This document shows, one piece after another, positions 5,441 through 10,566 of a stretch of DNA of 64,000 nucleotides; the first letter of the stretch is position 1, and each line of letters begins with the position of its first letter. Source of the DNA: Venatoribacter cucullus. GTDB lineage: Bacteria > Pseudomonadota > Gammaproteobacteria > Pseudomonadales > Oceanobacteraceae. The translations under genes were made by a program, and so were the position numbers. The notes beneath the pieces were generated by a model. It saw only the letters and a program-made list of their open reading frames with translations. It was not told the origin of the DNA and ran no database searches. The stretch covers positions 744,001 to 808,000 of the forward strand of contig NZ_CP046056.1 of the NCBI RefSeq assembly GCF_016132445.1. The letters run 5' to 3'.

Positions 5441-6193
5441 ATGCTCGGACAGATCCACATCGTTATGGTGAACACCACCCACTCCGGCAACATCGGTGCC
5501 GCCGCCCGGGCCATGAAGAATATGGGCCTCAGCCGGCTGACTCTGGTTGACCCCATTGCCGTGGTTGATGAGGACGCCATTCAGCGCTCCTCCGGTGCCG
5601 CCGACATTCTGCAGCAGGTGCGTATTGTGCCCACCCTGGAAGAGGCCATTGCCGGTTGCGGCCTGGTGGTCGGCACCAGTGCGCGCAGCCGCCATATTCC
5701 TTGGCCGCTGCTGACGCCGCGTGAATGTGCGGCCAAAGCGGCCCAGGCCATTCCGGCGGGTAATGAAGTGGCGCTGGTGTTCGGTCGGGAATCGCGCGGG
5801 CTCACCAACGAAGAGCTGCACCTGTGCAATGCCCACGTGCACATTCCCACCAATCCGGATTTCTCCTCCCTGAACGTGGCCCAGGCCATTCAGGTGCTCA
5901 GCTATGAAATGCGGCTGGCGCTGGTGGAAGACAGTGTGGCGGCCGACGCCGGTCAGTGGGGCGTGGAATGGGATTATCCGCTGGCCACCCACGCCGAGCT
6001 GGACGGTTTGTTTACCCACATGGAACAAGCCCTTATTGATACCGGCTTCCTCGACCCCAATACACCCAAACAGCTGATGAGCCGGTTGCGCCGCCTGTAC
6101 CAGCGGGCGGCACCGGACAAAATCGAAGTGAATATTCTGCGCGGTATGCTGGCCGCTATGCAGAATCCGCGCAAACAAGGGGAATCATCTTGA
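5441..6193 (+). CDS. trmJ: tRNA (cytidine/uridine-2'-O-)-methyltransferase TrmJ
   Basis: SPOUT-class enzyme that uses S-adenosylmethionine to 2'-O-methylate position 32 of several tRNAs. The 250-residue product has the N-terminal [19 protein letters not shown] stretch (11-29, with the catalytic region around the conserved asparagine) and the cofactor-knot motifs [12 protein letters not shown] (110-121) and [11 protein letters not shown] (143-153). The ATG at 5441 was preferred to the longer frame starting near 5378 because the family begins only a few residues before the HIVMVNT strand. The stop overlaps the cysE start by four bases, which suggests translational coupling. Confidence 0.92.
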
Positions 6194-7023
6194 GTATCCG
6201 TCACCTGCGTGAAGACATCGCCTGCGTATTCGAGCGCGACCCGGCCGCCCGCAATACCTTTGAAGTGCTGACCACTTACCCGGGTTTGCATGCTGTTATG
6301 CATTACCGGCTGGCGCACTGGCTGTGGCTGAAAGGCTTTAAATGGCTGGCGCGCTGGCTGTCGACCATCAGCCGCTGGTTTACCGGTATCGAAATTCACC
6401 CCGGCGCCACCATCGGCCGGCGTTTTTTTATTGACCATGGTATGGGCGTGGTGATCGGTGAAACCGCCGAAATCGGCGACGACTGCACCCTGTACCACGG
6501 CGTTACCCTGGGTGGCACCACCTGGAACAAGGGAAAGCGTCACCCCACATTGAAAAACGGTGTGGTGGTGGGGGCCGGCGCTAAAGTGCTGGGGCCGATT
6601 GAGGTGGGTGATAACGCCCGTATCGGCTCCAATGCCGTGGTCACCAAAGAAGTGCCGGAAGGCGCGACCGTGGTGGGTATTCCCGGTCGTATCGTGCGCA
6701 AAGCCAGCACCGCCGAAGATGAACAGCGCCGGCGCATGGCTGAAAAAATCGGGTTTGATGCCTATGGTATTGCCGATGAAATGCCCGACCCGATTGCCCG
6801 TTCCATTCATAACCTGATGGATCACATGCACGCGGTCGACCGCAAAATCGACACCATGTGCAAAGCCCTGCACACCCTGGGCGACACCACCTGCTCAGAG
6901 GCACTGCCGCAGCTGGAAGCGGAAACCTTCCTCAGCCTGAACGAGGGCGCGCGTGCGACCGCGGCAGAACCGGACGATAACAACGGAGCAGAACCGCCGT
7001 GTCAGCCCTGCGGTAAATCCTGA
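6190..7023 (+). CDS. cysE: Serine O-acetyltransferase CysE
   Basis: Makes O-acetylserine from serine and acetyl-CoA, the committed step of cysteine synthesis. The 277-residue protein has a helical N-terminal SATase domain and a left-handed beta-helix of hexapeptide repeats ([27 protein letters not shown]; roughly 75-175). These include [11 protein letters not shown] and the YHGVTLGGT active-site segment. It starts at a TTG that overlaps the trmJ stop, with AAGGGG upstream. The last ~60 residues are acidic, low in conservation and end with CQPCGKS. Its position before iscR/iscS links cysteine supply to the enzyme that consumes it. Confidence 0.92.
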
Positions 7024-7038
7024 CGGCGGTTGTGCATT

Positions 7039-7063
7039 AAAGTTGACTGAATTAGTCGGATAT
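7039..7063 (+). promoter_or_regulatory. IscR type-1 operator overlapping the iscR -35 region
   Basis: The central bases AGTTGACTgaattAGTCGG match the E. coli type-1 IscR consensus (ATASYYGACTRWWWYAGTCRRSTAT) at nearly every position, and the flanks (AAA..., ...ATAT) also agree. The site covers the -35 hexamer, as expected for autorepression by [2Fe-2S]-IscR. Confidence 0.85.
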
Positions 7064-7072
7064 CCGCATAAT
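7043..7072 (+). promoter_or_regulatory. iscR promoter
   Basis: TTGACT (7043-7048) and CATAAT (7067-7072) are separated by 18 bases, 36 bases before the iscR ATG. The -35 lies inside the IscR operator. Confidence 0.75.
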
Positions 7073-7107: not shown

Positions 7108-7590
7108 ATGCGCTTAACCACCAAAGGGCGTTACGCCGTCACGGCCATGCTGGATCTGGCCATTCATGCCCAGCAGGGGCCGGTCAGTCTGAATGATATT
7201 TCTGGCCGTCAGGGTATTTCCCTGTCGTATCTGGAACAGTTGTTTGCCAAGCTGCGGCGCAGTGAACTGGTGGCCAGCGTGCGCGGTCCGGGCGGTGGTT
7301 ATCGTCTGAACCGGGCGCCGGAGCTGCTGAACGTAGCCGATATTGTCGATGCCGTGAACGAATCCATCGACGCCACCCGCTGCAATCGCCGCGGTAATTG
7401 TCAGGACGGCCATGAATGTCTTACGCACCATCTGTGGTGTGATTTAAGTGAACAGATTCATGGCTTTCTGGCCGGCATTACCCTGGCGTCACTGATTGAG
7501 CGCGAAGAAGTGCGGGCCACGGCCGAGCGGCAGAATCAGCTGCGCCACAATCGTATCGCGGCGCTGGAAAGCCACGACGAAATCGCCTGA
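7108..7590 (+). CDS. iscR: Fe-S cluster-sensing regulator IscR
   Basis: Rrf2-family winged-helix transcription factor that senses Fe-S status. The N-terminal [18 protein letters not shown] and the wing with RGPGGGYRL (59-67) are typical. The three cluster ligands C92, C98 and C104 and H107 are all present, with the same spacing as E. coli IscR (160 residues here). It should therefore bind [2Fe-2S] and act on both type-1 and type-2 sites. The operator upstream predicts autoregulation. It is followed directly by a hairpin with a T-run before iscS, and the classical downstream isc assembly genes are missing. Confidence 0.95.
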
Positions 7591-7617
7591 CCCGGCTGCA
7601 GCCCCTTGACCCATCCG

Positions 7618-7650
7618 ACAGAGCGGCGACAATGCCCGCTCTGTTTTTTT
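7618..7650 (+). terminator. Terminator/attenuator between iscR and iscS
   Basis: A 9-bp stem (ACAGAGCGG / CCGCTCTGT) with a 9-base loop is followed by T7. The T-run ends 13 bases before the iscS ATG, leaving no room for a separate promoter, so iscS depends on read-through. Confidence 0.8.
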
Positions 7651-7662
7651 GACGGTACTGGC

Positions 7663-8826
7663 ATGACTCCCCTGTATTTTGATTACGCCGCCACCACACC
7701 GGCCGATCCGGCCGTTGCCGCCGTAATGGCGGGTTGTCTGACCCTCGACGGCACCTTTGGTAACCCGGCTTCCCGTTCCCATCGTTTTGGCTGGCAGGCG
7801 GAACAGGTTGTGGAACATGCCCGCCGTCAGCTGGCCGACCTGCTCGGTGCCGATCCGCGGGAAATTGTCTGGACCTCCGGTGCCACCGAAAGCAATAACC
7901 TGGCCTTAAAGGGCGTGGTGGAAGCACTGCGCAATAAAGAGCCACAACGGTCGCTGCACATCATCACCTCGGTGATTGAACACAAAGCCGTGCTGGATAC
8001 CTGTGCCTGGCTGCTGCAGCAGGGTGTGCATGTTACCTACCTGTGCCCGGATGCCGACGGCCTGATTCAGCCGCAGCAGGTGGCTGAAGCGCTGCGCGAC
8101 GATACCTGTCTGGTCAGTCTGATGGCGGTGAATAACGAACTGGGCACCATCACCGATATCGCCGGCGTGGCGGCGGTGCTGAAAAACCATGCGGCGCTGC
8201 TGCACGTCGATGCGGCGCAGGCCATCGGTAAAGTGCCGGTGCATGTTCAGGACTGGGGCGTGGATCTGTTGTCGGTGTCAGCGCACAAATTTTATGGCCC
8301 TAAAGGCATCGGCGCGCTGTATGTGCGGCGTGAACCGCAGGTGCCGTTAGCGGCACAGCTGCACGGTGGTGGCCATGAACGCGGTATGCGCTCCGGCACC
8401 TTACCGACCCATCAGATTGCCGGTCTGGGCGAGGCGGCGCGTCTTGTCGCGGCTAATCTGGCTGAAGAATGTAGCCGTCTGGGCGCCTTGCGCGACCAGC
8501 TTTGGCAAGGTCTGCAGACGCTGGGGGATGTCTACCTCAATGGCCACCCGACGCAGCGGTCGGCGCAGCATCTGAACGTCAGTTTTGCCGGCGTCGATGG
8601 TGAAATTCTGCTGGCCTCGCTGGCCAAGGTGGCGGTGTCGTCCGGCTCGGCCTGTAACTCGGCCACCGTGGCGCCGTCCTATGTGCTGAAGGCCATTGGC
8701 CGCAGTGACGAACTGGCCCATGCCGGCCTGCGTTTCAGCCTCGGACGCTTTACCACCGCAGCCGATGTTGAAGCGGCGGTGGCGGAAGTAGGGCGGGTGG
8801 TGAAGTTGCTGCGCAAACAGGCATAA
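7663..8826 (+). CDS. iscS: Cysteine desulfurase IscS, lacking the C-terminal tail
   Basis: PLP enzyme that removes sulfur from cysteine as an enzyme-bound persulfide for Fe-S clusters, thiamine and tRNA thiolation. The product has 387 residues. The PLP lysine is in SAHK209, H107 stacks on the cofactor, and the mobile-loop cysteine is C331 in SSGSACNSA. The sequence is clearly of the IscS type (GTFGNPASRSHRFGWQAE near 30-47). However, it stops at LLRKQA, where E. coli IscS (404 residues) continues for about 17 residues into the tail used for docking IscU. The ATG at 7663 follows the hairpin; a TTG upstream would place the hairpin inside the gene. No iscU follows. Confidence 0.92.
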   Translation: MTPLYFDYAATTPADPAVAAVMAGCLTLDGTFGNPASRSHRFGWQAEQVVEHARRQLADLLGADPREIVWTSGATESNNLALKGVVEALRNKEPQRSLHIITSVIEHKAVLDTCAWLLQQGVHVTYLCPDADGLIQPQQVAEALRDDTCLVSLMAVNNELGTITDIAGVAAVLKNHAALLHVDAAQAIGKVPVHVQDWGVDLLSVSAHKFYGPKGIGALYVRREPQVPLAAQLHGGGHERGMRSGTLPTHQIAGLGEAARLVAANLAEECSRLGALRDQLWQGLQTLGDVYLNGHPTQRSAQHLNVSFAGVDGEILLASLAKVAVSSGSACNSATVAPSYVLKAIGRSDELAHAGLRFSLGRFTTAADVEAAVAEVGRVVKLLRKQA

Positions 8827-8853
8827 ATAATGCAAAGCAGGCCGCGTCACGCG

Positions 8854-8882
8854 TACACCTTTAGTCAAAAGGTGCGTATAAT
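8854..8882 (+). promoter_or_regulatory. Probable ndk promoter
   Basis: A perfect TATAAT (8877-8882) lies 52 bases before the ndk start. The -35 position (TACACC) is poor, so only the -10 is convincing. Confidence 0.55.
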
Positions 8883-8933
8883 CCGCGGGTTTATTTTCCC
8901 CTAACCCCTTACATAGACTTTCTGGAGCATAAA

Positions 8934-9359
8934 ATGGCTGTTGAACGCACTCTGTCCATCGTAAAACCGGACGCCGTTGCCAAAAACGTAATTGGCGAAA
9001 TCGTTACCCGTTTTGAAAAAGCCGGCCTGCAGGTTGTGGCTGCCAAAATGATCAAACTGGACGACGAAAAAGCCGGCGGTTTCTACGCTGAACACAAAGA
9101 GCGTCCTTTCTTCAAAGATCTGGTGTCTTTCATGACCTCTGGTCCGGTGGTTGTTCAGGTGCTGGAAGGCGAAAACGCCATTGCCAAAAACCGTGAACTG
9201 ATGGGTGCTACCAACCCGAAAGAAGCCGCTGCCGGTACTATCCGTGCCGATTTCGCTGAAAGCATCGATGCCAACGCCGTACACGGTTCTGACTCTGCTG
9301 CTTCTGCTGAGCGTGAAATCGCTTACTTCTTCGCTGCAGACGAAATCTGCGCCCGCTGA
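8934..9359 (+). CDS. ndk: Nucleoside diphosphate kinase
   Basis: Transfers the terminal phosphate from ATP to nucleoside diphosphates through a phosphohistidine. The 141-residue product has the full family pattern: [12 protein letters not shown] at the start, K11 for nucleotide binding, and the active-site NAVHGSDS with H117. GGAG precedes the ATG. Codon use is strongly biased toward preferred codons, which fits high expression. In relatives it follows iscX; here it follows iscS directly, with its own -10 box. Confidence 0.97.
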
Positions 9360-9432: not shown

Positions 9433-10566
9433 ATGACCGAAACCACACAAAAGATCAATCTGCTGGGGCTGTCACCGGCCAAAATGGAAGCCTTTTTTGC
9501 CGATATGGGTGAAAAGAAATTCCGTGCCCAGCAAATGCTGAAATGGATTCATCAGTACGGGCAACCCGACTTCAACAGCATGACCAACATGAGCAAAGCG
9601 TTGCGTCAGCGTATCAGTGAAGTCGCAGAAATCCGCCTGCCGGAAGTGGTTTACGAAGATTTCTCCAAAGACGGTACCCGTAAGTGGGTGATGCGCGTGG
9701 ATGGCGGCAGCGCCATTGAAACCGTGTATATCCCCGAAAAAGACCGCGGTACTCTCTGTGTCAGTTCTCAGATTGGCTGCTCACTCGATTGCAGTTTCTG
9801 CTCCACCGGTAAGCAGGGTTTTAACCGCGATCTCAGCGTGGCTGAAATCATCGGTCAGGTCTATGTGGCGGCCATGAGCTTCCATGAGCAGGGCGAGCGC
9901 CGTGAGCGCCGTATCACCAACGTGGTGATGATGGGCATGGGCGAGCCGCTGCTGAATTTTGATAACGTCGTCGATGCCATGCAGCTGATGATGGACGACA
10001 ACGCCTACGGCCTGTCCAAGCGCCGCGTTACCCTCAGCACCTCCGGCGTGGTGCCGATGATGGATAAGCTCGGTGATGTCACCGACGTATCACTGGCAGT
10101 ATCGCTGCACGCACCCAATGATGAGCTGCGTAACCAGCTGGTACCCATTAACAAAAAATACCCGCTGAAAGAGCTGCTGGCGGCCACAAACCGCTATCTG
10201 GCCAAGCTGCCGGACCGCCGCAAAGCCACCATCGAATACACCATGATGGAAGGCGTCAACGACGAGCTGGAACACGCCGAACAGCTGGCCGAACTGCTGC
10301 GTGATACGCCCTGCAAAATTAACCTGATTCCGTTTAACCCGTTCCCGAATTCAGGGTATAAACGCCCCAGCAATAACCGCGTGTACCGCTTCCGCGATTA
10401 TCTGCAGAGCAAAAATTACATCGTCACCATCCGCTCCACCCGGGGTGACGATATCGACGCCGCCTGCGGTCAGCTGGTTGGCCGCGTGGAAGACCGTACC
10501 CGCCGCAGCGAGCGCTATATCAAGGCGGTACAGATTGATGATGTGACCCAGGGAAAAGCACTATGA
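9433..10566 (+). CDS. rlmN: Dual-specificity rRNA/tRNA adenine-C2 methyltransferase RlmN
   Basis: Radical-SAM enzyme that methylates A2503 of 23S rRNA and A37 of some tRNAs. The 377-residue protein has the CxxxCxxC cluster motif at C116, C120 and C123 and the C-terminal mechanistic cysteine C345 (AACGQL) that carries the methyl group. Glycine-rich [12 protein letters not shown] marks the SAM site. The stop codon overlaps the pilW start (ATGA), so the pair is translationally coupled, as in other gammaproteobacteria. Confidence 0.96.

Follow-up and report, generated by a model that had tools for sequence, protein, structure and literature searches.

An IscS without its IscU-docking tail at an iscR-iscS-ndk locus, and the agreement between tail and IscU across the order

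IscS is a hub for which several partners compete, and the map that assigns its faces to those partners is known mainly from E. coli mutants. The alternation between the ISC and SUF systems of Fe-S cluster assembly, as well as the placement of iscRS beside suf, is already known. In Alphaproteobacteria, PMC11475020 describes iscRS without iscU joined to suf and gives 34.9% identity between the IscS of Caulobacter and that of E. coli. For Pseudomonadales, a survey of the two systems states that most members carry one of them and that a few lineages are SUF-only; Oceanospirillales are collapsed as an outgroup in its figure, and the portion of the survey available to us makes no mention of a retained or altered IscS (PMC11559095). 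The open-licence literature searched, a limited scope, yielded no report tying loss of the IscS tail or erosion of its partner surfaces to the loss of IscU. The finding is an ordinary case of ISC or SUF; what is unusual in it is that IscS has, for the most part, shed the features for which it has no further use.

The isc locus of the window and the cluster-building genes of its genome

The window analysed here is a stretch of 64,000 nucleotides (G000:C1:744001-808000) from the source genome G000, that of a marine bacterium, a single contig of 2,827,114 bases that is 99.64% complete. Its gene order is trmJ, cysE, iscR, iscS, ndk, rlmN, pilF, ispG and hisS. The proteins of cysE, iscR, ndk, rlmN and ispG score above the cut-offs of their NCBIfam models, and the names trmJ, pilF and hisS are our own presumed assignments. 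The features that define the isc locus are the following:

6190..7023, + strand: cysE, the upstream neighbour of iscR (TIGR01172, 263.6 bits, above the cut-off of 210.65)
7039..7063, + strand: candidate IscR type-1-like operator agreeing with 23 of 25 consensus positions and overlapping a sigma-70-like -35 element, TTGACT, at 7043
7108..7590, + strand: iscR, 160 aa (TIGR02010, 211.5 bits, above the cut-off of 207.55), with the [2Fe-2S] ligand pattern C-x5-C-x5-C-x2-H
7663..8826, + strand: iscS without the IscU-docking tail, 387 aa from ATG, C-terminus VVKLLRKQA
8827..8933, no strand: iscS-ndk junction of 107 bases, where IscU-bearing relatives have iscUA-hscBA-fdx-iscX
8934..9359, + strand: ndk, the downstream anchor of the isc locus in relatives (NF001908, 224.8 bits, above the cut-off of 155)
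9433..10566, + strand: rlmN, the second downstream anchor (TIGR00048, 475 bits, above the cut-off of 290)

The preliminary description of this DNA placed ndk 107 bases after iscS and the end of IscS at residue 387, and both coordinates and translation confirm it; an alternative TTG start at 7606 would give a protein of 406 aa. Against NF008110, the window's IscR scores 211.8 bits, below the cut-off of 275. Its IscS scores 523.3 bits against the equivalog TIGR02006 (cut-off 643.2), a model passed by five of five IscU-bearing IscS and by none of three other IscU-less IscS, and 533.1 bits against the equivalog NF010611 (cut-off 548), which is passed by the three other IscU-less proteins and by all five IscU-bearing ones. 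For annotation, this means that TIGR02006 missed four of the four tail-less IscS tried and NF010611 the window's only. A single-sequence IscS scan of genome contigs returned 11 loci, four of them close (55-79% identity), and the close relatives are MAGs labelled Thalassolituus, Bacterioplanes, Saccharospirillaceae and unassigned Pseudomonadota. An AlphaFold model from four IscS sequences was poor (mean pLDDT 57.6) and was left unused.

The ISC scaffold is missing from the genome. PF01592, the IscU family, gave no match in the whole of G000, and a control search with it returned matches in 12 of 14 genomes, E. coli included. The family was matched in 13 of 35 genomes; across the 22 genomes of the window's own family it revealed no ISC-type IscU and five long NifU-type frames of 308-330 residues. 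Frames of this type, found in the f1 genomes G001, G004, G007, G010 and G021, suggest nitrogen fixation genes in some relatives. The best HscA match of G000 reached 624.7 bits, under the TIGR01991 cut-off of 708.55; 8 of 35 genomes exceed that cut-off, and they are precisely the ones that carry a short IscU. Frataxin (CyaY) was not matched in G000 and was seen in 3 of the 35, all of them IscU-bearing, and Fdx and IscX are absent at the isc locus of the window.

SUF is present. PF01458 matched twice in G000, and the suf locus (L058, G000:C1:960000-975000) comprises a divergent Rrf2 regulator, sufB, sufC, sufD, sufS, an A-type carrier and SufT, about 212 kb separating the end of iscS from sufT. 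The regulator passes TIGR02944, and SufB, SufC, SufD and SufS pass TIGR01980, TIGR01978, TIGR01981 and TIGR01979, respectively; SufT likewise exceeds its NCBIfam TIGR cut-off. The A-type carrier scores 123.3 bits against TIGR01997 (SufA), under the cut-off of 136.2, and passes the broader TIGR00049. SufS (L058:5741-6973) reaches 583 bits with the SufS model TIGR01979, above the cut-off, and a higher score, 647 bits, with the model for the family 2A encapsulin cargo desulfurase, where it falls short of the cut-off of 800. The operon lacks sufE; a SUF system devoid of a sulfur shuttle was considered and rejected, as SufE is encoded elsewhere, at G000:C1:2426491-2426847 (154.3 bits, cut-off 27). 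The genome further encodes two copies of TusA and a full-length ThiI frame. At 2.83 Mb, against 3.9-4.4 Mb in eight genomes of the same genus, it is a reduced genome.

The genome-wide search for iscU, hscA and sufBCDSE thus found no IscU and no HscA over the cut-off, together with sufBCDSAT and sufE, and neither an isc cluster elsewhere nor a recoverable IscS tail came to light. This gene content supports the earlier proposal that the classical ISC scaffold pathway was lost and that clusters are made by SUF.

IscU, gene order and the IscS tail across the order

Among 194 genomes sampled from the order, 84 carry ISC only, 103 SUF only, five both and two neither, with PF01592 matches of NifU type (4 genomes) and short SufU-like or marginal matches (9 genomes) counted as IscU-less. 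By family, 19 of 47 are IscU-bearing only, 19 IscU-less only and nine mixed, a tally that omits five genomes absent from the family table. An IscS match was present in 189 of the 194 genomes, and its sequence was read for 151 of these: 58 of 88 IscU-bearing genomes, picked to spread over families, and 93 of 101 IscU-less ones (all except G035, G076, G108, G135, G160, G184, G202 and G204). One IscU-less row, L209 of G082, was dropped because a contig end cuts its IscS, leaving 150 rows, 58 IscU-bearing and 92 IscU-less.

The order iscR-iscS-iscU-iscA-hscB-hscA-fdx-iscX-ndk-rlmN was recovered in all seven IscU-bearing genomes with a long locus read, which span six families (queries for IscU, IscA, HscB, Fdx and IscX were taken from G025, and all pass NCBIfam models), and iscU follows iscS in 58 of 58 IscU-bearing loci. 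The earlier statement that relatives have six assembly genes and then ndk holds for these seven genomes and fails for the 22 genomes of the window's own family. In the 93 IscU-less loci, ndk lies 3' of iscS in 55 and sufB in 26, with neither found in 12 within the stretch examined. An iscR match lies near iscS, with no iscU, in 76 of the 93; in G030 iscR is downstream of iscS. G011, from the window's family, and G038 carry iscR-iscS-sufBCDS-sufA-sufT in the ISC slot, followed by ndk-rlmN. The ISC genes look to have been excised or replaced in place at one junction with unchanged flanks, because IscU-bearing relatives read iscRSUA-hscBA-fdx-iscX-ndk at the same spot. In G154 (family f44), the space between iscS and ndk holds a tyrosine-recombinase-like ORF (L225:5703-6626) that matches XerC best among NCBIfam models, with 53.7 bits, short of the cut-off, and that is possibly a mobile element that removed the isc genes; no iscR was found upstream of iscS in this genome, and the search for isc remnants in its iscS-ndk gap returned only weak matches (E above 0.01).

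Alignment of IscS C-termini, extended to 150 genomes of the order, showed that the state of the tail agrees with IscU in every one. The motif PLW[DE]M...W..H and 43 residues past the LGR motif characterize 58 of 58 IscU-bearing IscS, and PLW[DE]M occurs in none of the 92 IscU-less proteins, 88 of which have 20-33 residues past the LGR motif. The window's IscS retains 23 residues past LGR[FY]T, against 43 in IscU-bearing relatives, so that the docking tail is indeed absent, as first described, and about 20 residues are missing rather than the ~17 initially estimated. Decayed remnants of the tail persist in four IscU-less IscS, namely SPQWRVFKEKQAAGH in G038, SPQWKRAQKSL in G067, SPQWKQYQNTKDLVQERAAAQ in G154 and SPLWNRFKEGLDLPS... 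in G166. The shared SPQW in place of SPLW in G038, G067 and G154, which belong to different families, may reflect chance, convergence or gene exchange.

All nine mixed families are concordant, the tail occurring with IscU, although f25 rests on one 86%-complete genome. The idea that the gain of SUF drives tail loss was rejected: the four genomes with both systems whose IscS was read (G025, G032, G091 and G097; the SUF match of G032 is partial) retain the tail, so that its loss goes with the loss of IscU and not with the gain of SUF. Absence of the tail is by itself compatible with IscU-type partners, because an archaeal IscS without the long tail (probably 4eb5, listed as a cysteine desulfurase) was reportedly crystallised with IscU. 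In E. coli IscS, deletion of residues 374-404 lowers IscU binding, and the single tail mutants L386R and M389R still bound IscU (PMC2854127).

Partner surfaces of IscS and the number of switches

Erosion beyond the tail was assessed at 187 sites, each conserved in at least 93% of IscU-bearing IscS and numbered as in E. coli IscS from alignment and published papers. The 18 most eroded sites in IscU-less IscS are K221, R112, F89, Q113, R223, E309, E285, E117, R225, R340, L333, S304, S312, E347, E227, M315, S351 and T329. Ten of 13 published ISC-partner sites fall among these 18, against eight of the 174 other sites (Fisher p about 1e-9, a value that is optimistic because the 13-site list was compiled after the erosion ranking was known). 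Separately defined sets gave p = 0.025 for IscU contacts and p = 0.0012 for groove-only sites; neither the ThiI set (p = 0.25) nor the TusA set (p = 0.46) differed from the rest. As published for E. coli, Glu309-Ala316 and Glu347 lie at the IscU interface, mutants at R112, R220, R223, R225/E227 and R340 weaken or abolish binding of IscX or CyaY, W45 and D52 are needed for TusA and L333A lowers s2C only (PMC2854127), and R220E/R223E/R225E abolishes ferredoxin binding (PMC3750173).

In the window's IscS, these surfaces show the changes K221E, R112A, F89A, R223Q, R225P, R340K, L333V, S312I and M315A, with E347 and S304 unchanged. The window and all 92 IscU-less rows carry the catalytic Lys206 and Cys328, and between 88 and 100% of these rows retain W45, E52 and D65 (TusA), R220, R237, M239, K206 and C328. 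The TusA positions W45, E49, D/E52 and D65 read W, Q, E and D in the window, three of the four being kept, and six of ten residues whose mutation weakens ThiI binding persist. Several observations count against a simple partner-loss picture: the other four ThiI-weakening residues (F89, R116, R223 and R340) erode; the TusA residue E49 persists in just 65% of IscU-less rows; S326, required in E. coli chiefly for s2C, is retained in 92 of 92; and the L386R and M389R proteins still bind IscU.

All 58 IscU-bearing IscS have F or Y at position 307, where 77% of the 92 IscU-less ones have G; the latter carry W or Y at position 113 in 52 of 92 rows and Lys at position 221 in about 1%. K221, Q113, E117 and Y307 are candidate residues of E. 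coli IscS that do not appear among the mutants in the available portions of PMC2854127 and PMC3750173.

The gene trees differ in the number of changes that they need. The IscS tree needs three changes of state and the tree of the adjacent iscR 26, of which the supported (starred) branches force only two. With the neighbour taken outside each row's own IscU-less relatives, the nearest other iscR is the same-family IscU-bearing one for 15 of 21 mixed-family IscU-less rows, in seven of nine families (not f16 and f24). On IscS, the nearest sequence is a same-family IscU-bearing row for just 2 of 23 such rows. Once the 60 or the 120 columns that best separate the two states were left out of the IscS alignment, the changes rose to 8 or 16, a partly circular result, against 3-4 in random column drops (six each), and same-family neighbours were not restored (4 of 23 and 2 of 23). 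In our reading, the IscS tree is drawn together by convergent erosion, and taxonomy implies one or more switches in each mixed family.

We lean, from these sequence comparisons, towards a history in which ISC would have been swapped for SUF many times in the order, at least once in each of the nine families and often at the same iscS-ndk junction, and in which IscS would each time have shed its faces for IscU and for ferredoxin, IscX and frataxin while keeping those for TusA and ThiI. Spread of a tail-less IscS lineage by horizontal transfer, with the tail lost once or a few times and its association with IscU a matter of inheritance rather than repeated adaptation, would account for the three changes in the IscS tree and for the scarcity of same-family IscS neighbours both before and after column removal; with only three changes in its tree, any movement of IscS itself from one lineage to another would bring the number of tail losses below nine. 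We nevertheless judge such a spread unlikely, given the 26 changes of the weakly supported iscR tree, the 15 of 21 rows whose IscR is nearest to a same-family IscU-bearing one, the unchanged genes flanking the locus, the remnants of the tail persisting at four loci and the (partly circular) rise in changes on removal of state-divergent columns.

Predicted role of IscS and comparison with known systems

The site at 7039-7063 is the best IscR-like match in the 64-kb window, where the next best reaches 19 of 25 consensus positions, and a promoter-like site lies at 7043-7072. IscR-like sites of at least 20 positions occur 5' of iscR in 61 of 76 IscU-less and 47 of 57 IscU-bearing loci, against 1 of 180 shuffles, and the cluster-ligand pattern of IscR is found in 71 of 76 and 56 of 57, respectively. 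IscR therefore probably continues to repress iscRS when SUF-made clusters are plentiful. Control of suf by IscR is not claimed, because the best site upstream of suf agrees with the consensus at 19 of 25 positions, close to what chance would give.

It is likely, as judged from the genomes compared, that clusters come from SUF and that IscS is kept, under IscR control, to donate sulfur for tRNA and thiamine, its partner surfaces having been shed after the loss of IscU. Gene content, synteny and the loss of tail and residues are directly observed; the direction of sulfur flow, the repression of iscRS by IscR and the order of events are inferred. SUF would have replaced ISC for cluster building in the lineage, and iscUA-hscBA-fdx-iscX would have been lost between iscS and ndk, iscR-iscS staying behind. 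Freed from IscU, ferredoxin and IscX, IscS would then have shed the docking helix at its C-terminus together with a large part of the basic groove used by acidic partners, while retaining Lys206, Cys328, the core TusA face and most of the residues that affect ThiI. It would most likely serve as an IscR-controlled sulfur donor for TusA (s2U34 tRNA) and ThiI (s4U8 tRNA, thiamine), with SufS-SufE feeding SufBCD. A function for tRNA and thiamine is suggested because the corresponding residues are conserved and the partners TusA and ThiI are encoded.

IscS might instead have been recruited into SUF as a sulfur source for SufBCD, acting by itself or together with SufS, a situation that may exist in alphaproteobacterial isc-suf operons, with tRNA thiolation as a side job. 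The adjacency of iscS to sufB in 26 of 93 IscU-less loci points that way, as do the iscRS-sufBCDSAT array filling the ISC slot before ndk in G011 of the window's family, the co-transcription of the Caulobacter isc-suf operon (PMC11475020) and the reported interaction of the lone M. tuberculosis IscS with Fe-S proteins, whose clusters it is reported to assemble (PMC8300815). Such recruitment is nonetheless quite improbable here, as the window genome encodes its own SufS and SufE, its iscS lies about 212 kb from suf with its own IscR-like site and the core TusA residues of IscS are conserved. An artefact, with iscU and the IscS tail concealed by a gap in the sequence or by a frameshift, is a bare possibility that we regard as negligible, because the intact tail is missing from 92 of 92 IscU-less genomes, the window's genome is a single contig at 99.64% completeness and PF01592 is unmatched also in the single-contig relatives G003, G018 and G019.

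For the order, the rule that emerges is that the IscS tail predicts IscU. Since one partner class was removed and others were left across dozens of genomes, surface erosion tends to separate ISC contacts from thiolation contacts. If the reading of IscS as a retained thiolation donor is true, a repeated natural separation-of-function experiment would allow the IscS partner map to be read from genomes, and would predict a thiolation-only cysteine desulfurase under IscR Fe-S control. The window's IscS is a natural candidate for such an enzyme and lets one ask whether IscR couples tRNA thiolation to Fe-S status.

Among described systems, M. tuberculosis resembles the window in that it has SUF and retains IscS as its only ISC component (PMC8300815); its IscS is a distant protein, and the likeness drawn here concerns gene content. 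The alphaproteobacterial isc-suf operon of Caulobacter and Rhodobacter shares iscR-iscS without iscU and SUF as the cluster builder, and its gene order is that of G011 and G038. In the window, unlike that operon, iscRS and suf are unlinked, ndk directly follows iscS and suf has its own Rrf2-type regulator. With the classical ISC system of E. coli and Pseudomonas (iscRSUA-hscBA-fdx-iscX), the window has in common iscR, iscS, the locus with its flanks and an IscR-like operator; it departs from that system in having no assembly genes after iscS and in an IscS whose tail is gone and whose partner groove is eroded.
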